Source: Longimicrobium sp. (lineage in GTDB: Bacteria > Gemmatimonadota > Gemmatimonadetes > Longimicrobiales > Longimicrobiaceae). Taken from it: a stretch of 23,392 nucleotides of DNA. The stretch lies in the NCBI GenBank assembly GCA_030446945.1, contig JAUJMI010000010.1, forward strand, positions 1 through 23,392, written 5' to 3'. The notes beneath the pieces are model-generated. The model ran no database searches and was not told the DNA's origin. It saw only the letters and a list, made by a program, of their open reading frames with translations. The position numbers and the translations under genes were made by a program. Below, in pieces: positions 1 to 21,749 of this stretch; within the stretch, counting starts at the first letter, position 1, and every line of letters begins with the position of its first letter.

Positions 1-1377
1 GGCGAGCCGCGCGACGAGGGTGGTCCCCCGCTCCCGTACCTCCCGGTGGACCGCGCCTTCACCCTCAAGGGGATCGGCACCGTGGTCACCGGCACGCTGG
101 TGCGCGGGCGGCTTGCCGAGGGCGACGCCGTATCGCTGGCGGGGGAGACGTGGCGGGTGCGCTCGCTCCACAACCACAGCGAGCGCGTGGCCGCCATAGG
201 CGCGGGGCACCGGGTGGGGGTCAACGTCGCCGGCCTCGCGGCGGACGCCGTGCGGCGCGGCGACACGCTGGTCTCGCCCGGCCACCCGCACGTGGGCCGC
301 TTTCTGAACGTGCGCCTGCGCTGGGTGGAAGGTGCCCCGGCGGAGTGGAAGCACGGCGCCCGCCTCCTCTTCCATGCGGGGTGCACCGAGGCCGAGTGCC
401 GGCTGTGGGGCCTGGTGCGGGAGGGGGAGGAGAGCTGGGGGCAGGTGGAGCTGCGCGAGGCGGCGCCGTTCTTCCCGGGACAGCGCTTCATCCTGCGCGG
501 AACCACGCCGCTGGCCACCGTCGGCGGCGGCGAGGTGGTGGACGTCGCGCCGGACCGCCCCCGCCGCGTCACCCCGGCCGAGCGCGCGGCCTACGCAGGC
601 GCGGAGCGGCTGGCGGCCTACCTCGCGGGCGGCGCCGCGCCGGTGCTCGACCTGGGCGCCCTGGCCCGCCGGTGGATGCTCCCCGAGGAGTCGCTGCGGG
701 GTGAGGCGGAAGGGAGCCCCGGGCTGCGCGCGGCCGGATCGCTGGCGTGGGGCGCGGAGTGGGAGGGGGAGCTGCTGAAGCGGTTCCACGGCTTCGTGGC
801 GGATCACCCGCGCGGGGAAACGCTGGTGCCGTTCGCGCGCCTGGCGCGGGAGCTGAAGGCGCCCGCTGCGCACCTCCCCGTGCTCCTGCGTGCGCTGCTC
901 GCGCGCGACGATGCCGCCTTCCTGCGTGCGAACGTCCGGCTGGACCGTGCGGGGTGCGTGCTCTACGCCGGCCGCGTCGCGCTCACCCCGGACGAGGAGC
1001 GCATCGCCGGACGGCTGCTGGAGCGGCTGCGGGCGGCGGGGCTGCGCCCGGAGCGCATCCGCGAGTACGGGGATCTCCACCCGAAGCGCCCGGAGGTGGT
1101 GGGGCGCGTCGCGGCCAAGCTGTGCGAGCAGGGGCGCGCCGTCCGCGTCTCCGCGGACCTCGTGCTGGACGCGGACGCGGCGGAGGAGCTGCGCCGGGCT
1201 CCGCTTCGCCACGGGCTGGACGGCGTGCGCGCCGCCGAGTTCGGGCAGGCGCTGGGGCTCTCCCGCAAGTACACGATCCCGTATCTGGAATACCTGAACC
1301 AGGTGGGGATCATGCGGCGCGAAGGGGATCTGCACTCCCTTGCGCGGGGTGCGCTCGAGCGGCCGGCGTCCGCATGA
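1..1377 (+). CDS. selB: Selenocysteine-specific elongation factor SelB, 5'-truncated by the window edge
   Basis: SelB is the EF-Tu-like GTPase that brings Sec-tRNA to UGA codons followed by a SECIS hairpin. The reading frame is open from base 1, and the first residues (PVDRAFTLKGIGTVVTGT) are the start of EF-Tu-type domain II, so the GTPase domain and true start lie before the window. About 458 residues are visible. Domains II and III run to roughly residue 190 (TTPLATVGGGEVV near 165-180), followed by the SelB-specific winged-helix repeats, ending in a KYTIPYLEYLNQVGIMRR segment typical of the last one, which binds the SECIS RNA. It stops at TGA 1375-1377. selD and a Sec-containing gene follow on the other strand, so the genome very probably makes selenoproteins. 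selA may lie upstream, but this cannot be seen. The GTG at base 46 is internal, not a start. Confidence 0.93.
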   Translation, partial: GEPRDEGGPPLPYLPVDRAFTLKGIGTVVTGTLVRGRLAEGDAVSLAGETWRVRSLHNHSERVAAIGAGHRVGVNVAGLAADAVRRGDTLVSPGHPHVGRFLNVRLRWVEGAPAEWKHGARLLFHAGCTEAECRLWGLVREGEESWGQVELREAAPFFPGQRFILRGTTPLATVGGGEVVDVAPDRPRRVTPAERAAYAGAERLAAYLAGGAAPVLDLGALARRWMLPEESLRGEAEGSPGLRAAGSLAWGAEWEGELLKRFHGFVADHPRGETLVPFARLARELKAPAAHLPVLLRALLARDDAAFLRANVRLDRAGCVLYAGRVALTPDEERIAGRLLERLRAAGLRPERIREYGDLHPKRPEVVGRVAAKLCEQGRAVRVSADLVLDADAAEELRRAPLRHGLDGVRAAEFGQALGLSRKYTIPYLEYLNQVGIMRREGDLHSLARGALERPASA

Positions 1378-2525: not shown

Positions 2526-3593
2526 TTACAGCACCGCGACCACCGGTCCGTCGCCGCCCTCGCGGAGGACGCCGAAGGGCGCCACGTCCAGCCCGTGCGC
2601 GCGAGCGACGCGCAGGAAGTCGTCGCGGCCGGCGGGATCCACGGCGACCAGGAGGCCGCCGCTGGTCTGCGGGTCGCAGAGGATGGCGCGCTGGTCGTCG
2701 GCGAGGGGGCCGACCTTGTGGCCATAGCTGTCCCAGTTGCGGCGGGTGCCGCCGGGGACGGTCTTCTGCTCCAGGTAAAAGGGGAGCACCTCCAGCCGCG
2801 GAACGTCGTCGAATCGGATCTCCGCGCGCACCCCGCTCCCCTCGCACAGCTCGATCAGGTGCCCGAGGAGGCCGAAGCCGGTCACGTCCGTCATCGTTGC
2901 CACCGAGGGGACCCCCGCCAGCGCGCGGCCCACGTCGTTGAGCGCCAGCATCTGGGTGCGGGCCGTCGCGAAGTCCTCCTCGCGCAGCACACCCCGCTTC
3001 TGCGCGGTGGTCAGGATGCCGACGCCCAGCGGCTTGGTGAGGTAGAGCTCACACCCGGCGCGGGCCTGGGTGTTGGTGCGGACCTCGTCGCGATGCGCGG
3101 TGCCCGTGACGGCCAGCCCGAAGATGGGCTCCGGCGCGTCGATGCTGTGTCCGCCCGCCAGCACGATCCCCGCGCGCCGGCAGGCGTCGCTCGCGCCGCG
3201 CAGCACCTCGCCCGCCACCTCGGGACCCAGCCTGTCCACCGGCCACCCCAGGATGGCGATGGCCAGGATGGGCGTCCCCCCCATCGCGTACACGTCGCTG
3301 ATGGCGTTGACGGAGGCGATGGCGCCGAAATCGAACGGGTCGTCCACGATGGGCATGAAGAAATCCGTGGTGCTGATCACCACGCGCTCGTCGTCCAGCA
3401 GGTAGACGGCGGCGTCGTCGCGCGCGCCGTTCCCCACCAGGAGGCGCGGATCGGCCGCCGCCTGCGGCACCGCGGCCAGGATGCGGGTGAGGACCTCCGG
3501 CGCGATCTTGCAGCCGCACCCCGCGCCGTGGGAGTACTCGGTGAGGCGAATGGGGCGCGCGGGCTCGGCCAGGATCACGGATTCGGAGCGCAT
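2526..3593 (-). CDS. selD: Selenide, water dikinase (selenophosphate synthase) SelD
   Basis: SelD makes selenophosphate from selenide and ATP, the selenium donor for Sec-tRNA synthesis. The 355-residue protein starts at ATG 3591-3593 ([20 protein letters not shown]), which matches the family length of about 350; the longer open frame upstream is not conserved-looking. Seen in order: [11 protein letters not shown] with the catalytic Cys (Cys, not Sec, in this protein) and the following Lys; [71 protein letters not shown]; and [11 protein letters not shown] near the C-terminus. All key motifs are intact. It lies 167 bases downstream of the GrdB-family selenoprotein gene on the same strand, separated from it by a terminator-like hairpin, so it may have its own promoter. 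Confidence 0.97.
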
Positions 3594-3760: not shown

Positions 3761-4594
3761 TCAGGGCCGTAGCCCCAGCCGCCGCTCGATCTCGATCCCT
3801 TCCTTTCTCGCCTGCACCCAGGGGATCGGGAGGGTGCGGACCTCGCCGCTCCGCTCCGCGCTCACCAGGTGGTCGAGGCACTCCAGGATGACGCGCCGCT
3901 GCAGGTCGCGGTGGAACGGCACCCCGAAATGGTGCCCCATCATCCAGGGAAGGAAGACCGCGCGGGGCGGCTTCGCGTGCTCGGTGACGTCGAGCGCCAC
4001 CGTCGGGGAAACGGTCGGAATCCCTCGCTGCTCTAATGCGCGCTGGACCAGCGCGATGCTCTGGTGGCAGATGGGTCAGGCAGGCGCCGCAAGGGCGATG
4101 TCCGCCCCCTCTTCGGAAACGGCGGCGGCGATGTCTTCCGCGAGCGTCCGCTCCAGCCGCTCGGGATCCATGTTGTAGCCGATGAAGGTGTAGAAGTTCT
4201 CCGCCAGTCCGCCGATCACCCCTTCGTCCGCCAGCTCGCGCAGCCGGTCGAGGGGGAAGATGACGTTGAGGTCGCGGTTGGCGCTCGCCGTGGGGTACTT
4301 GAGCTGATGGATCTCCAGCTCGTCCGGGCGGGACGCCGAGGGGACGCGGCGGAAGGAGTAGTCGCCCACGGGGTGCACGGTGTCAAAGGGCATCGACCCC
4401 TTCGGCTGCACCCCGGACGTGCTGATGAAGACGAGGCGGCACTCCGAGAGCGGCTTGCGGAGCGGCGCCAGCGGAACGAAGTCCGCCTTGTCGATCATGG
4501 AGCCGGGGTAGCGCTCGTTGACCGTATCCCACAGCCCCGGCCGCAGCTGCGCCACCCGCGGCGGCCCTCCTCCGCCGTCAGAGGTTTCCGTCAT
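3761..4594 (-). CDS. GrdB-family selenoprotein (glycine/sarcosine/betaine reductase selenoprotein B family) with in-frame UGA as Sec
   Basis: I read this as one 277-residue gene with TGA at 4078-4076 decoded as Sec173. Before the TGA are family-like segments: [64 protein letters not shown]. After it the same frame goes on for 104 codons: [20 protein letters not shown], then [20 protein letters not shown], then ILECLDHL, to a TGA at 3763-3761. The UPIC motif (Sec173, Cys176) is a redox UxxC. The start is ATG 4592-4594, preceded by AGGAG at suitable spacing. The family is known from anaerobic amino-acid reductases, but shorter relatives of unknown substrate occur elsewhere; a role as a thiol/selenol redox enzyme is inferred. 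selB and selD lie close by. A routine gene caller would split it into a truncated gene plus a small orphan. Confidence 0.88.
4039..4055 (-). promoter_or_regulatory. Candidate bacterial SECIS hairpin downstream of the Sec UGA
   Basis: On the minus strand, 20 bases after the TGA, a perfect 7-bp stem CGCGCTG/CAGCGCG closes a GTC loop whose first base is G. Known bacterial SECIS elements place a stem-loop with a G early in the apical loop about 16-37 bases after UGA; here the loop G is about 28 bases after it. An alternative 5-bp pairing (ACCAG with CTGGT) overlaps and would give a larger loop. The fit is good but the region is GC-rich, so hairpins arise easily. Confidence 0.55.
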
Positions 4595-4868
4595 GGATCC
4601 ATTCTCCTGAGCGTTGCACCAGGTAGAAGTGCAGGTGGAAGAAAAGGTGCGCGAGTGTGGCCGGATCCCTGGTGCGGATCGTCTCCAGGATGAACTCGCG
4701 GTCGGTGGGCGGAACGTCGAGCAGCGGCTTGAGCGCCTCGATCCACGCCTTGTCGATCTCCCGGCGCCCCGCTTCCTCGTTGCCGTCGCCGAAGTGAAGG
4801 CGGACGTAGCGGATGAGCTTTTCCGGGTCACCCGCCGCGGCGGCGTCTTTGAGGTACTGCAGCGACAT
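4578..4868 (-). CDS. Small protein of unknown function, overlapping the selenoprotein gene
   Basis: This 96-residue protein starts MSLQYLKDAAAAGDPEKLIR and has no signal peptide or membrane segment. It looks helical, with an aromatic/His cluster near the end (HLFFHLHFYLVQRSGEW). I do not recognise a family. ATG 4866-4868 is chosen because GGAGAG lies about 10 bases upstream and because the longer open frame before it has no such signal. Its last 17 bases overlap the start of the GrdB-family gene, so the two are probably translated together. By position it could be a partner or small subunit of that enzyme, but nothing in the sequence proves this. Confidence 0.7.
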   Translation of the reverse strand: MSLQYLKDAAAAGDPEKLIRYVRLHFGDGNEEAGRREIDKAWIEALKPLLDVPPTDREFILETIRTRDPATLAHLFFHLHFYLVQRSGEWIHDGNL

Positions 4869-14949: not shown

Positions 14950-16404
14950 TCACAGCCCCGCCGGTGCCGCCGTCGCCACCAGCACGGCGGTGGCGAGCAG
15001 CACCAGCGCCCCGGCCGCGATCTCGACCGTCGCGGAGCGGCGCAGGCGCGCCGCGCCGGCCTCGTTGCCGAGGGCGGGGCGTAGGCGGCGCCAGTTGTAC
15101 GCGCCGGTCCCGAAGACGGTGGTGAGGAGCGCGAGCTTGATCAGGAGCGTGCGGCCGTAGTCCGTCTGCCAGAGCGCGGAGGGAGCGCCCACGTGGAGCC
15201 AGGTGGCGAACAGCCCGGTGACGGTGAGCGCGCCCGCGCAGGCCAGGGCCACCGGCGAGAAGGCGTTCACCAGAGCGGCCACGGCGGGACCGCGCTCCTC
15301 CTTCGGCAGGCGCATGGCCGCCGGGACGCCCGCCGCCACCACCAGGAACAGCCCGCCGACCCACCCGCCCGCCCCCAGCACGTGCACTGCATGGGAGATG
15401 ATGGCGAGGCCGCTGAGCCGCGGGACCGCCGCCGCGTGCCCCGAGAGCGCGGGCGCCACGGCGAGCGCCAATCCGCCCAGCGCCGCCAGCGGCCATCCCG
15501 CCCCGCCCCTTCGCGCCGCGACGAAGCCGGCCAGCGCGAGGATCGCCCCCACCGCCTGGATGATCCACCCCCACCCCCACGTGGTGCGCGCCAGCATCGT
15601 CGTCACGAGGCCGCCATCCACCGCTGCGGCGGGGCCGTGCATGGCGTACGACTGCGCGTACAGGCGCAGGACCGCGGCCAGCGCCACGAGCGCCGCGGCG
15701 GCGAGCCCGATCCCCGCCGCGCGCGCCGCCGCGGGCGTGGCCAGCGCACCTGCACCGAACCGAGTCGCGGCGGGGAGCACCACCAGGCGCAACGCGAGCG
15801 CTCCCAGGACGCCGAGGAGCCCGACGTACGTAAGCCAGCGCACCACCACGTACAGCGGCGATTCCGCACCGAAGCCGGGGCCGCTGGGGAAGGTGGCCGC
15901 GTCGTGATGCGTCTCGTCGGGGTCGGTGGGCGCGGCGGGCTGCTGCCCGGGTGCCAGGCCGGGCGGCGGAGCGAGCCCCTCGGCGCCGGGGGCGATCACG
16001 AACGAATACCTGCCTCGCACCGGATGTCCGTCCGCGCCCGCGATCTGCCAGGCGACGATGTACTCGCCCGCCTGGAGCGCCCCGCCGACGGGAGCCACGA
16101 TCACGCGCGGCGAGTCGGCGGCGAGGGCGAGCGTGCCCAGACGGATCTCCGCGCTGTCCGGCCCGATGAGCTGGATCCGCGCCACCGCGAGCTCGACGTT
16201 CTCGTTGAAGCTCAGCCGGATCTCGCGCGGCGCCGTGCCGAGGTGCGCGCCGCTGGCGGGCTGGGCGCGCCGGAGCGCGCCGTGGGCGAGCGCGAGCTCA
16301 GGAACGGCCAGCGCCAGGAGGAACAGGGCGACGCGGAACAGCCATCCTCGCCTGCAAGCGTGTTTGGCCGGGGCCATGCTTCGGCGGTTTTCGATGTGGG
16401 TCAT
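14950..16404 (-). CDS. CopC-CopD fusion, copper resistance/uptake protein (YcnJ-like)
   Basis: A 484-residue fusion. A signal peptide ends at ELALA just before HGALRRAQPASGAHL, which puts a His at the mature N-terminus as in copper-binding CopC. The CopC domain continues with IRLSFNENVELAVARIQL and ADGHPVRGRYSFVI, whose His is the second likely copper ligand. A Pro-rich linker (about 150-180) leads to the CopD part with about eight membrane segments, including HAVHVLGAGGWVGGLFLV and FSPVALACAGALTVTGL. CopC-CopD proteins bind periplasmic copper and are thought to bring it into the cytoplasm. ATG 16404 is used; ATG 16375-16377 (MAPAKHACRRGW) also fits. It follows the His/Met-rich lipoprotein gene by 81 bases, which contain a hairpin. 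Confidence 0.93.
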   Translation of the reverse strand: MTHIENRRSMAPAKHACRRGWLFRVALFLLALAVPELALAHGALRRAQPASGAHLGTAPREIRLSFNENVELAVARIQLIGPDSAEIRLGTLALAADSPRVIVAPVGGALQAGEYIVAWQIAGADGHPVRGRYSFVIAPGAEGLAPPPGLAPGQQPAAPTDPDETHHDAATFPSGPGFGAESPLYVVVRWLTYVGLLGVLGALALRLVVLPAATRFGAGALATPAAARAAGIGLAAAALVALAAVLRLYAQSYAMHGPAAAVDGGLVTTMLARTTWGWGWIIQAVGAILALAGFVAARRGGAGWPLAALGGLALAVAPALSGHAAAVPRLSGLAIISHAVHVLGAGGWVGGLFLVVAAGVPAAMRLPKEERGPAVAALVNAFSPVALACAGALTVTGLFATWLHVGAPSALWQTDYGRTLLIKLALLTTVFGTGAYNWRRLRPALGNEAGAARLRRSATVEIAAGALVLLATAVLVATAAPAGL

Positions 16405-16485: not shown

Positions 16486-17382
16486 TCAGGGCTGCTTCGT
16501 GACGACCCGCCGCACCCCGGGATCTTCCCAGGCCTCGCGCAGCGCCGGATCTTTGCGGATCTCCTGCTGGACCGCCGGGTCGCGGACCAGTTCGCCGACC
16601 AGCGTCAGCAGCTTCTCCGTCGCGCCATCCGCCGGCACGGCGCGTGGGGCGCCGTGGACCATCGCCGCGTGGCTGGTGCTCCCCGCCGTCGGTGTGCCCG
16701 TCGCGGCGCCGTGGCCCATCTCGGCGTGGCTCGATGCGGCGGGCCGGACGCTCGCGTTGCCCGGCGCCCCACGGTGCTGAGAGTGGTCCATCCCACTCGC
16801 GGCGGTGCGGCCGGACCCCGCGCTGGCCATCCGGCTGTGGTCCATTCCGGACATCGAGTGGCCGGCGTCGGAGCGGGCCACGCTCGCCGCCGCGTGTGAC
16901 CCGGAGTGGCTGGCCGAGCCGGCCGAGGCGTGGCCCATGCGCGAGTGATCCGTCGCCTGCGCACGGCCCGCAGATGCGGCCCCATGCCGCATCCCGCTGT
17001 GCGACTGCGCGCTGGCGGCACCTGCGTGGCTCTTGCCGGCGTGCGCCTGTGCGGAGCCCGGCGCGGAGTGGCTCATACCCGCGTGTGACTGCCCGCCCGC
17101 GGCGGCGCCGTGATTCATCCCGGCGTGCGCCTGCGCGTTCGTGGACCCGCTCGCGCCGGCCGGCGCGGAGTGATCCATCCCCGCGTGCGATCCCGCCCCG
17201 TGCTGCATCCCGGCATGGGCACCCGAATCCGCCGCGGCGCTGTCGGCGCCCTTCGCGTGCATGTCGGGCGCGGCTGCGGCGGCGGTGTCGCGCGCAGGCG
17301 TGGCCGCCTGATCGTCGCCCGCCGGTCCCGAACACCCCGTGAGCGCGAGCGCAGCGAGGGTGATGCTCAGCTTTCCGTACAT
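16486..17382 (-). CDS. His/Met-repeat lipoprotein, probable copper-binding, of unknown family
   Basis: A 298-residue lipoprotein: LALTGC lipobox with Cys17. Residues about 55-245 are low complexity with some ten units of the form H-(A/S)-x-M-x-H-(G/S/A), such as HAGMQHG, HAGMDHS, HAGMNHG, HAGMSHS, HSGMRHG, HAEMGHG, HAAMVHG, with Ala/Gly/Ser spacers. Interleaved His and Met fit binding of Cu(I)/Cu(II), as in known periplasmic Met/His-rich proteins. The last 50 residues form a small domain (LLTLVGELVRDPAVQQEIRK, then DPALREAWEDPGVRRVV) that also occurs in the upstream protein. GAGGAGGA gives a strong ribosome binding site. Silver or another soft metal is possible. I know no named family for it. 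Confidence 0.85.
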   Translation of the reverse strand: MYGKLSITLAALALTGCSGPAGDDQAATPARDTAAAAAPDMHAKGADSAAADSGAHAGMQHGAGSHAGMDHSAPAGASGSTNAQAHAGMNHGAAAGGQSHAGMSHSAPGSAQAHAGKSHAGAASAQSHSGMRHGAASAGRAQATDHSRMGHASAGSASHSGSHAAASVARSDAGHSMSGMDHSRMASAGSGRTAASGMDHSQHRGAPGNASVRPAASSHAEMGHGAATGTPTAGSTSHAAMVHGAPRAVPADGATEKLLTLVGELVRDPAVQQEIRKDPALREAWEDPGVRRVVTKQP

Positions 17383-17416: not shown

Positions 17417-18949
17417 TCAATGGTTGTGCTGCGACGTCCCGGGAGCGGCGGGCTGCATCATCCCGCGCTGGCGGCGAAGCTCGGCGAGGCGACGCTGGAC
17501 CTCGGGGTCGCTCCAGAGGCGGTGCAGGCGAGGATCCGCGTGCACCCGCGCCTCCACCTCCGGATCGGAGAGGAGGCGGACCGCGAAGTCGATCGCCTGC
17601 GCGCTGTCCGACGCTGCGCCCTCGGCCGCGCCGTGGCTCGTCCCGTGGGCTCCCTGCATCTGCTGCACCAGGCGCCGGAGCGCGGAATCGGCCTCGACGC
17701 GCTGGCGGATGACCGGGTCGGCCATCATGCGCTGGTGCAGCTCCATCATCTGCTGCATGTTCGTCGAGCCGGCGGCGCCGTGCTGCATCCCGGGCATCGC
17801 GGAGTGATCCGCCGTATGCGCCTGGCCGGCGGGCTGAGTGCCTGCGTGCCCGGCGTGGCTCGTCTGGCCCGCCGCGCCGTGGTTCATCCCCGCGTGCGCC
17901 ATGACGGCGCCGCGCGCCACTGTCGGCGTGGGGAACTCGGGGAGGAACCCGACGGCCGGGCCACCCATGTTCTGGATCCCCATCATCGTCCCCATGTCCC
18001 GCCATTCCTGCATCGTCATCAGGAACGAGGTGTCGTCGCGGTAGCGCGCGGCGGCGCGCAGGATCTCATCGCGCTTCTTCTCGCGCGGCACCTTGGGCGA
18101 CGCCAGGATGTCGGAGATGACGTCGTGCATCCCGTGCAGGTTGTCGAAGACGATCGCCGCCTCCGGGTAGCGCGCCGAAAAGGTGGGGGCGATGGCGGCC
18201 GTCATCGGCATCACGCGCGGCATGTGCTCCGGAGCGCTCTCCAGCATCTGGCGGAAGCGCGCCACCGTGGCCGTGACCCCGGCCTGCCTCGCCTCCGGCG
18301 ACTGGGCGGTCATCAGCGGCTCGTACAAGCCCACCTGCAGCCAGTGGTAGCCCCAGATCAGCCCGTTGAACTTGGGATACGCCTCGCGGAACGCCGTCGC
18401 GTAGTACTGCCCCTCCATCAGCTCCATCGACTTGGGAAGGGAGCTGAAGGCGAGGTCCGGGCGCGACTTGTAGTAGCGCATCACCTCCGCCACCTCGCGG
18501 TCCTTCTCCTCCTGGCTCAGCCGCTCGTCGCCCAGGATATCGTAGATCTGGCGATGGAGGATGTGCGCCCACTCGAACATCATCTTCGCTTCGGGCGCGA
18601 GCTTGGCGTACTGCACCTCGATCGCGGCCTCCTCCAGCGGAAGGCGCGGCGGGGCCACCAGGAGCTTGCGCGTGATGTAGTCGTACTCCTTCACCTCCAA
18701 CTCGCTGACCGGCGCGCCGGGACGCGTCAACAGCTTCTCGTACAGGATGGCGTGCCCGTAGTCGAAGGCGTTGAAGAGCCGGTCCGCGCCCGGGTAGTTG
18801 CGGCGGAAGACCCAGTTGTGGCTCGCCGGCAGGTAGAACTGCTCGTGCACCCGTGCCCACTGCGCGTACGCGGGCTCGGCCACCATGCTCAGACCCATCG
18901 CCAGCGCCGCGGTGCCCATCACGCGGCGGGCGCGATATCCTCTATCCAT
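17417..18949 (-). CDS. Exported His-rich helical protein of unknown family with HAGM linker and C-terminal DP modules
   Basis: A 510-residue protein. The signal peptide ends near AYA-Q30. Residues about 30-345 form a helical region with many His beside acidic and aromatic residues: VHEQFY, FNAFDYGHAILYEKLL, MFEWAHILHRQIYDIL, GYHWLQVGLYE, VFDNLHGMHDVISDIL. Such helices could hold a metal site, but I do not recognise the fold. A linker (about 345-395) has HAGMNHG, HAGHAG and MPGMQHG, like the next gene. After it come two DP modules (MMADPVIRQRVEADSALRRL and LLSDPEVEARVHADPRLHRL) and the end SQHNH. GGAGG precedes the ATG. It is the second gene of the presumed metal operon, 39 bases after the beta-barrel gene. 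Confidence 0.85.
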   Translation of the reverse strand: MDRGYRARRVMGTAALAMGLSMVAEPAYAQWARVHEQFYLPASHNWVFRRNYPGADRLFNAFDYGHAILYEKLLTRPGAPVSELEVKEYDYITRKLLVAPPRLPLEEAAIEVQYAKLAPEAKMMFEWAHILHRQIYDILGDERLSQEEKDREVAEVMRYYKSRPDLAFSSLPKSMELMEGQYYATAFREAYPKFNGLIWGYHWLQVGLYEPLMTAQSPEARQAGVTATVARFRQMLESAPEHMPRVMPMTAAIAPTFSARYPEAAIVFDNLHGMHDVISDILASPKVPREKKRDEILRAAARYRDDTSFLMTMQEWRDMGTMMGIQNMGGPAVGFLPEFPTPTVARGAVMAHAGMNHGAAGQTSHAGHAGTQPAGQAHTADHSAMPGMQHGAAGSTNMQQMMELHQRMMADPVIRQRVEADSALRRLVQQMQGAHGTSHGAAEGAASDSAQAIDFAVRLLSDPEVEARVHADPRLHRLWSDPEVQRRLAELRRQRGMMQPAAPGTSQHNH

Positions 18950-20203: not shown

Positions 20204-21226
20204 TCAACCCCTCGCGACGCGCGCCACGTCCGCGTGGGGGCACACGGGGTTGCGCGGGGCCGCGCCGAGGCGGCAGAGCAGGTGGCCCAGCGGGGACTCG
20301 CCCGGGTGGCCGCAGTGGTGCGTGGGGTGCGCGGCGTGGTCTCGGGGGAGGGGGTGCGCCATCACCGCGCCCGACACGCCCACCAGGCTGAGCGCCAGCA
20401 ACGCGGCCACCAGCGACCGGCGCGTGACGTGGCTCCCCACCGGTGGATCTTCGCCGGCCAGGCGCCGGATGCGGCGGTCCAGGAGGTCCACCCGGTGGGC
20501 GAAGCCGACGCCGACTCCCGGAACGTGCCGCCAGGAAGCCGTCGCAAGGAGGGCAGAGGCAAGGGCGAGCGGCCGCTCCCGCGCGGCGCGGTCGTCCGCA
20601 CGGATCTCGGCCTCGTCGGCGACGTCCTGGGCCAGGCGGCGGAGGGCGGGGAGCCAGAATAGGGTGAGCGCCAGGAAGCGCAGCAGCGACAGGCGCAGCG
20701 GGTCGCGCCGGGCCACGTGCGCGCCCTCGTGCGCCAGCAGCGCCTCCAGCTCGTCCGGCGCGAGGCGCACGGCGAGCGCGGCGGAGACGTAGATGCGCGG
20801 GCGCAGCCATCCCACGGTGAACGCGGGGTTGGGGAGGCCGTCCACCACCCGCACCCGCACCGGATCCACGCGCGCCGCGACGGCCGCGGTCCAGAACGGA
20901 TCGCCTACGGCCGGCACCCGCGCCTCCAGCCGATCCAGCGTGCGGCGCACCCGGCGGGCGGCGCGCACGCGGTCGTACAGCGCGTACGCGAGCCCGGCGA
21001 CCACCAGCACGTGGAAGAAGAGGTGCACCGGCCGCAGCAGCTCGTGCAGCGCGATCACGCAGAGCGCACCCAGGTGGTCGCGCCCCTCCAGCCCGCGCTC
21101 CAGCCCGGTGGCGAAGTGGTGGCCGAAGACGGGGCTGACCGACAGCAGGAGGAGCGTGCCGATCCCCAGCAGGAGCGCGCGGCGGTGCGCCTCCTCGCGG
21201 GTGACGAGGGTGCGGGAGTGCGTCAT
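20204..21226 (-). CDS. M56-family (BlaR1-like) membrane metalloprotease with His/Cys-rich periplasmic tail
   Basis: A 340-residue sensor protease. Two hydrophobic stretches lie at about 16-35 and 50-84; the gluzincin motif is HEGAH at 166-170 with a further acidic motif DEAEIRADDRA; a last membrane segment is near 271-290. In BlaR1/MecR1 the following periplasmic part is a penicillin-binding domain. Here it is only about 50 residues with His291, 297, 300, 303, 304, 307, 315, 331 and Cys305, 318, 329, which looks like a metal-binding tail. Upon signal such proteases cleave, or cause cleavage of, their BlaI partner. The ATG overlaps the blaI stop by 4 bases (ATGA). Metal sensing is inference from the tail and neighbours. 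Confidence 0.9.
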   Translation of the reverse strand: MTHSRTLVTREEAHRRALLLGIGTLLLLSVSPVFGHHFATGLERGLEGRDHLGALCVIALHELLRPVHLFFHVLVVAGLAYALYDRVRAARRVRRTLDRLEARVPAVGDPFWTAAVAARVDPVRVRVVDGLPNPAFTVGWLRPRIYVSAALAVRLAPDELEALLAHEGAHVARRDPLRLSLLRFLALTLFWLPALRRLAQDVADEAEIRADDRAARERPLALASALLATASWRHVPGVGVGFAHRVDLLDRRIRRLAGEDPPVGSHVTRRSLVAALLALSLVGVSGAVMAHPLPRDHAAHPTHHCGHPGESPLGHLLCRLGAAPRNPVCPHADVARVARG

Positions 21227-21681
21227 CGGCGCTCCCCCGTTTCAGCCAGGCGGCGCTGGATCAGGCGGGCCAGCTCCGCGAGCTGCTCCGGGTCCTGGTC
21301 GGCCAGGATGTCCACGAACGACGCCGTCACCGCCTGGGGGCCGAACGACAGGATCCCCTCCATCAGCCGGCGCGACGCCTGGGAGCGGAACTCGTCTTCG
21401 GAGAGGCAGGCGTCGTAGTGGAGGAGCTCGTCGCGTTTGGCGCGGCGCAGGAGGCCCTTCTCCACCAGCTTGTTGAGCACGGTGATGACGGTGTGGATCG
21501 CCACGTTGTGCTCGCGCGCGACCCGCTCGTGCACGGAGCGCGCGGGTGCCGGCCGCCCGATCTCCCAGACGGCCTGCATCACCCGCGCTTCGAGGTCGCC
21601 CAGTACCTTTGCCAGCCCCTTGGCGGAGAGGCGGACCGTGTCGTGGATGCGGAGCGATTCCGGTGTGTCGCCGTGGTTCAT
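21223..21681 (-). CDS. BlaI/MecI/CopY-family winged-helix repressor
   Basis: A 152-residue repressor: winged helix LGDLEARVMQAVWEIGRPAP, VHERVAREHNVAIHTVITVL, NKLVEKGLLRRAKRDELLHY, then a dimerisation/cleavage region (LSEDEFRSQASRRLMEGILS). It lacks the CxCx4CxC copper motif of CopY, so release would depend on the protease encoded next. ATG 21679-21681 is chosen; a further ATG at 21727-21729 would place the start within the -10 region of the promoter. It probably represses its own operon through operator B and the beta-barrel operon through operator A. Confidence 0.93.
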   Translation of the reverse strand: MNHGDTPESLRIHDTVRLSAKGLAKVLGDLEARVMQAVWEIGRPAPARSVHERVAREHNVAIHTVITVLNKLVEKGLLRRAKRDELLHYDACLSEDEFRSQASRRLMEGILSFGPQAVTASFVDILADQDPEQLAELARLIQRRLAETGERR

Positions 21682-21720
21682 CACGCGTCCCGTGGGGAAG
21701 GGGCCGACGGTGGCAGCTGC

Positions 21721-21749
21721 ACGATACACAAGGTTTTATGCTGCGTAAA
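21721..21749 (-). promoter_or_regulatory. Promoter B for the blaI-M56 operon
   Basis: On the minus strand TTTACG (21749-21744), a 17-base spacer and TATCGT (21726-21721). Operator B covers the -35 box and part of the spacer. The expected transcript start leaves about 30 bases before the ATG at 21681. Confidence 0.6.

Follow-up and report, generated by a model that had tools for sequence, protein, structure and literature searches.

A probable PrdB-like selenoprotein encoded across an in-frame UGA codon, with a recurring partner gene, in Longimicrobium sp.

The stretch of Longimicrobium sp. DNA analysed here (23,392 nucleotides, referred to below as the window) contains on its minus strand a reading frame that opens with ATG at 4594-4592, meets a TGA at 4078-4076 and runs on to a second TGA at 3763-3761. 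Does the first TGA end a protein of 172 residues, or is it read as selenocysteine within a longer one, and what would such a protein do? A sequence-only reading of the window had proposed a hidden selenoprotein of the GrdB family. When the frame was read again its coordinates proved right: the gene occupies 3761..4594 and has 277 codons plus the stop, with the single in-frame TGA as codon 173, so that read-through gives a product of 277 residues carrying the motif AUPICHQS. The TGA at 4076..4078 (minus strand) would encode the U of a UxxC motif, and the TGC codon at 4067..4069 (minus strand) its Cys, presumed to be the resolving residue. From the comparisons given below we consider it very probable that a single gene underlies the two apparent fragments, its UGA being decoded as selenocysteine to yield a PrdB-like selenoprotein of 277 residues.

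As that reading had noted, two genes for selenocysteine synthesis and insertion lie close by. selD, the selenophosphate synthase gene, is found downstream on the same strand (2526..3593, start picked by eye; NF002098 514.1 bits, TIGR00476 422.8 bits), and we take its motif GAGCGCKI to denote the Cys form of selD. The 3' part of selB lies on the plus strand (1..1377; TIGR00475 87.3 bits) and includes the PF09107 winged-helix domain; the contig begins inside this gene, which at 16-1344 is 79% identical to the complete selB of a same-genus genome, G004.

In order to examine the part following the UGA we scanned named bacterial genomes. The 37 loci obtained, together with the window and a relative from the same family (L006, from genome G018), made up 39 sequences, three of which (L060, L063 and L065) do not cover the UGA site. 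TGA was found at the site in all 36 covering sequences, within UPICHQS or UPICHQT in 22 of them, the window included, and within UPIUHQS in the other 14. The loci belong to nine named phyla (Gemmatimonadota, Acidobacteriota, Bacillota, Armatimonadota, Actinomycetota, Planctomycetota, Verrucomicrobiota, Chloroflexota and Thermomicrobiota), and two come without a named phylum. TGA also stands at the site in two distant order-level relatives (L009, UPVCHQS; L010, UPMCTQA). Two weak matches, in G057 and G023 (E near 9e-4), looked like chance and were not used. Codon tests were run on 34 rows, L061 and L062 being excluded as both have lost the frame. Between codons +4 and +87 past the UGA, frame 0 contained no stop, and the two remaining frames had 96 and 57. 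Differences between the window and L006 fell 9/5/18 on the first, second and third codon positions in the 98 codons past the UGA and 12/2/45 in 150 codons upstream of it, whereas in 54 codons beyond the final stop they fell 37/32/34, a random pattern. In the five relatives compared, substitutions past the UGA were mostly at third positions and similarity collapsed beyond the final stop. The part that begins UPICHQS is homologous and colinear in the relatives, in the same frame, and its substitutions are of the coding type up to the final stop.

The sequence-only reading had also suggested looking for Cys at the Sec position. Two alphaproteobacterial plasmid homologues, from Roseomonas haemaphysalidis (L067) and Haematobacter massiliensis (L068), carry TGC there instead of TGA. 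These Cys-type proteins, labelled 'selenoprotein B family', are 26-27% identical to the window protein and read CPVCHQT and CPICHQT where it has UPICHQS. Cys is likewise found in protein P0123 (CPICHQS), while the W of P0124 at this position is probably a TGA read as Trp by the gene caller of its source. In the Roseomonas locus (L067:3800-5272) the Cys homologue adjoins a gene annotated as protein adenylyltransferase SelO.

The best protein-database matches cover only the first half of this gene. A search that admitted full-length proteins too gave 1,700 matches to the selenoprotein, of which the best 120 were all 154-179 residues long and ended near the UGA. When the second half alone served as query, two proteins were matched. 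Since the best 120 matches are first halves and the second half finds only these two, the active site largely escapes annotation. At the DNA level the homologues run on past the UGA; the exception is the locus of Terrihalobacillus insolitus (L063), which keeps the partner gene described below and the first half but departs from the family at the UGA itself (L063:6471-6500). Its C-terminal half was not found within the 12.5-kb locus, and its genome has selA and tRNA-Sec. This locus may be a decayed or rearranged copy. Three pairs of loci that share an accession prefix (L037/L054, L032/L061 and L053/L056) each come from one metagenome-assembled genome (MAG) with two copies of the selenoprotein gene; they may be duplicates, binning mixtures or assembly duplicates, and in two of the pairs one copy lacks the partner.

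Is the machinery for selenocysteine present? A search for selA and selC had been recommended. Neither selA nor a true tRNA-Sec was found in the window's own assembly, which is 86% complete and whose contig starts inside selB. In the RF01852 search of this genome 150 of 693 candidates were scored; four matches with E <= 0.001 were rejected because ARAGORN identified them as tRNA-Ser (L001), tRNA-Gly (L002), tRNA-Met (L003) and tRNA-Leu (L004). Both genes do occur beside the same genes in G004. There, selD shares one strand of a single contig with the partner and selenoprotein genes, and the opposite strand bears selB, selA (422.7 bits) and tRNA-SeC(TCA), in a layout that is the mirror image of the window. 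An alcohol dehydrogenase gene beside them was discarded as a linked gene, not being a constant neighbour across loci. In G018 a single contig carries selB, selD, the gene pair and, at its end, part of selA; in G007 tRNA-SeC lies on another contig and the selenoprotein copy is cut by the contig end before the UGA site. Within the window's family (21 genomes) a close selenoprotein is present in four and selA in three, all of them carriers. RF01852 scores above 60 bits were obtained in this family only for G004 (79.8) and G007 (74.3), the next being a 52.1-bit match in G006 that we take for an ordinary tRNA. We then counted 32 carrier genomes, derived from the 37 loci after leaving out L029 and L060 (in G004 and G007) and L054, L056 and L061 (same MAGs as L037, L053 and L032). 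tRNA-Sec was present in 28 of these and selA over its cut-off in 30; 26 had both, and all 32 had at least one.

Insertion of selenocysteine in bacteria calls for a SECIS element, described in PMC1088965 as a hairpin just downstream of the UGA with a small apical loop containing G. The window has a hairpin that fits this feature at 4039..4055 (minus strand), made of a 7-bp stem, CGCGCTG/CAGCGCG, closed by a loop GTC that starts 27 nt past the UGA; folded alone it has an energy of -10.4 kcal/mol. Twenty-nine of the 36 sequences were aligned over the hairpin, leaving aside the near-copy L054 and six loci with another hairpin (L053, L055-L059). All 29 aligned rows form six of the seven pairs and 8 form the seventh, the innermost pair (30-34) being unpaired in 21, and the predicted consensus is a six-pair stem. 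Covariation is thin: a two-sided change is seen in only one of the seven pairs, in 3 rows, and control positions slid by -1 and +3 scored higher (0.122 and 0.069, compared to 0.056 for the hairpin), with only 16% and 33% of paired cells, compared to 90%. As covariation is weak, codon constraint is the main support for the hairpin. We counted identical codons against the expectation from each sequence's own codon use in 32 rows (without the frame-shifted L061 and L062 and the near-copies L054 and L059). The strongest eight-codon segment of the gene begins at +7 past the UGA, with a codon-identity excess of 0.28; the mean excess is 0.157 for +1 to +14, against 0.031 elsewhere, and another segment, at -40, shows an excess of 0.166 (5 codons). 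Every one of the 24 alanine codons at +8 is GCG (expected identity 0.32). In four Bacillota rows, 6 of 8 third positions from +6 to +13 are G or C, compared to 49-91 of 185 elsewhere. That the UGA is instead a true stop, the half past it being the remains of a pseudogene or a fragment translated on its own, as the first-half database matches, the end of L063 at the UGA and the selA and tRNA-Sec missing from the window's own assembly could suggest, is extremely improbable in view of the third-position bias with no frame-0 stop, the exchange of UGA and Cys, the codon constraint at the hairpin and the Sec genes beside the same gene in G004.

To which family does this selenoprotein belong? The earlier assignment to GrdB stood only in part. 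The PF07355 (GRDB) score, 42.7 bits, exceeds the cut-off of 22, but the best curated model is TIGR04483 (PrdB) with 146.7 bits, below its equivalog cut-off of 300, and not large GrdB. Scores against the GrdB models TIGR01917 and TIGR01918 were 38.6 vs 602.2 bits and 44.8 vs 65.45 bits, both below cut-off. These models are 431-435 positions long and the window protein matches only about 206-375. Its homology to GrdB (glycine/sarcosine/betaine reductase selenoprotein B, PF07355) lies in the C-terminal half with the UxxC region. By these sequence criteria the window protein counts as PrdB-like and not as one half of a GrdB. About a third of its residues are shared with the PrdB encoded on a Terrisporobacter petrolearius plasmid (L066; 34% identity over 80% of the query), a protein of 241 residues against 277 that has Sec at the same position: its segment UGTCHRSAVLVQRAIEEAGIPTV aligns on the window segment starting UPIC, and the codon at the site is TGA. 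No relative of the window protein was found in the PDB apart from one chance-level match (E 1.2).

PrdB-like selenoproteins with UxxC are also abundant in the sea. The surveys of the Sargasso Sea and of the Global Ocean Sampling (GOS) list 42 and 235 sequences, respectively, as 'proline reductase PrdB' (PMC1088965, PMC2398784), and the GOS table gives PF07355 for them (PMC2398784). In the tables of these two papers PrdB is entered with UxxC only, and the parts available contain no mention of UxxU or of a constant partner gene for this family (PMC1088965, PMC2398784).

Could the window protein be PrdB proper, of D-proline reductase, or GrdB, of glycine reductase, and serve amino-acid fermentation? 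The TIGR04483 score, the PF07355 score over cut-off and the resemblance to Terrisporobacter PrdB, down to the place of Sec, speak for it. Against it, the score is half of the PrdB cut-off, and the plasmid prdB is preceded by prdA and a different small gene, unlike the window partner; this small gene, which lies between prdA and prdB, gave no alignment with the 96-residue partner. PF09338 (the pyruvoyl-type partner) was unmatched in all four carrier genomes of the family, in a search without positive control that also gave 0 matches in 14 control genomes. We regard this reading as highly improbable, and D-proline reductase activity of the window protein as unlikely.

The PrdB-like selenoprotein gene is instead accompanied by a gene for a protein of 96 residues, which the sequence-only reading had not pointed out, nor had it the SECIS hairpin or the double-Sec relatives described below. 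The partner gene (4578..4868, minus strand) lies directly upstream, its last 17 nt overlapping the start of the selenoprotein gene. Nine of ten further loci with both ends readable show an overlap of equal length, and the tenth one of 14 nt. By tblastn the partner was found in 38 of 42 loci (37 of 41 distinct ones, L028 and L060 being the same contig), with 53-100% identity, and not in L037, L061, L009 and L010. L037 and L061 have another sequence upstream; the other copies from the same MAGs (L054 and L032) do have the partner gene. Among 61 relatives it is present in exactly the four genomes that have the close selenoprotein. The partner matched no family over cut-off in Pfam or NCBIfam (Pfam HAAS was rejected at 13.3 of 27 bits) and no credible relative in the PDB (E 0.28), and no relative of it was found in the plasmid collection; 1,839 database relatives were counted. 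In an alignment of 30 rows its invariant residues include R23, H25, D28, W42, H80, W90, H92 and D93.

Some relatives apparently carry two selenocysteines. In fourteen of the 36 sequences, from 13 genomes, the Cys codon of the UxxC motif, three codons past the first TGA, is TGA as well, which would give UxxU. Bacillus sp. ISL-45, whose record is not labelled as a MAG, is among them. We built a tree from an alignment of 33 rows without the two Sec/Cys columns; it included 11 UxxU rows and the distant L009 and L010, and left out L006, L053, L054, L060-L063 and L065. On this tree the UxxU/UxxC label needs three changes, at least two of them forced by well-supported branches, and one UxxU sequence (L035) sits among three UxxC Bacillota. 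The second TGA exchanges with Cys, as Sec would, and a sequencing error shared across phyla is unlikely. The table of a 2026 review, as far as available, lists D-proline reductase as UxxC with one Sec and UxxU only in other families (PMC13188914), and in the literature within our reach we found no report of UxxU or of a constant partner gene for the PrdB-like family.

The position of the hairpin differs between these groups. In the UxxU branch its loop lies 18 nt past the second UGA. The six Acidobacteriota loci L053 and L055-L059, which have one UGA, carry another hairpin (ATCAGTCC-GTC-GGACTGAT or one slightly altered from it), with its loop about 18 nt past that single UGA and not 27 nt as in the window type, a shift equal to the 9-nt spacing of the two UGA codons. 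The UxxC gene of the window keeps the shifted hairpin (27 nt) and may descend from a double-Sec ancestor. The tree branch uniting the 27-nt hairpin type is supported at 92/84, below the program's threshold. Should the double-Sec form prove real, it would offer a natural test of one SECIS serving two UGA codons and of the interchange of Sec and Cys at the resolving position.

How might the PrdB-like selenoprotein work? In UxxC proteins generally, Sec attacks, the second residue resolves and a thioredoxin-type donor regenerates the active site. In the window, SelB and tRNA-Sec would decode the UGA at 4078-4076 as selenocysteine by way of the hairpin 4055-4039. The product, a PrdB-like selenoprotein of 277 residues encoded by a gene that overlaps the partner gene, would have UxxC as its active-site motif. 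Sec would be the attacking nucleophile on a substrate or a disulfide, the Cys (or Sec) three residues on would resolve the Sec adduct, and a thioredoxin-type donor would restore the active site. The 96-residue protein may be a subunit of the selenoprotein or its dedicated partner.

As to the substrate, the neighbouring genes give a hint. A carbon-nitrogen hydrolase gene is present in 13 of the 42 loci. In ten it lies beside the selenoprotein gene or the pair, on the same strand and within 200 nt, either upstream (L030, L031, L033, L045, L046 and L052) or downstream (L034, L037, L042 and L050); in three it is farther away. Among proteins of solved structure, the L034 copy is closest to NIT4, nitrilases and cyanide dihydratases. 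Six of the 13 proteins were tested against the Nit6803 model TIGR04048 and scored 187-247 bits, below the cut-off of 502.6. The window's genome has a 63% identical nitrilase copy on another contig, and all four carriers in its family have one (62-64% identity). At 400 bits or more, a nitrilase is found in 7 of the 21 genomes of the family, namely in 4 of 4 carriers and 3 of 17 non-carriers; a further non-carrier, G013, has a partial copy. Among the 32 carrier genomes, 14 have a nitrilase at 380 bits or more and 11 have none at E <= 1e-60. As the neighbouring nitrilase genes suggest, the compound that the enzyme reduces may be a small organic one connected with nitrile or carboxylate metabolism, a proposal to which we give somewhat less than an even chance; a nitrile-linked substrate is the best lead.

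A rival to this substrate, though not to the selenoprotein itself, is that the protein serves general thiol or selenol redox or repair chemistry (on peroxides or disulfides), the nitrilase being incidental. UxxC and UxxU are typical of thiol-dependent redox selenoproteins in the parts of published tables available, and a nitrilase gene that is adjacent in so few of the loci and lacks a strong match in about a third of the carriers agrees with such a role. Its recurrence as a same-strand neighbour on either side (6 upstream, 4 downstream) in different phyla, and the copy kept by every carrier of the family, speak against mere coincidence. We judge the chances of this alternative to be nearly even.

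Returning to the PrdB-like selenoprotein and its partner, we tentatively propose, while holding it to be somewhat more doubtful than not, that they make up a selenoenzyme of two proteins, widespread over at least nine phyla, with the 96-residue partner nearly always present, and acting in the same pathway as a nitrilase. Its UxxU branch would read two UGA codons 9 nt apart with a single SECIS, and the UxxC form of the window would stem from an ancestor with two Sec in which the second went back to Cys. The protein appears to be of a known kind, a PrdB-like selenoprotein, and the recurring partner, the phylogenetic spread, the double-Sec branch and the shifted SECIS appear to be new. With the recurring partner and the nitrilase link, the substrate of PrdB-like selenoproteins outside amino-acid fermenters comes within reach of experiment.

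The window contains other genes, all on the minus strand, that we looked at by eye. An open reading frame tail resembling a HigA-type antitoxin, seemingly split over two frames, lies beside what we take to be a DinB-like frame (2120-2446 and 1542-2381). Farther on, 14950-16404, 16486-17382 and 17417-18949 presumably form a copper-related run (CopC/CopD-like and His/Met-rich proteins), and at 20204-21226 and 21223-21729 a presumed M56-type membrane peptidase adjoins a BlaI-type repressor.
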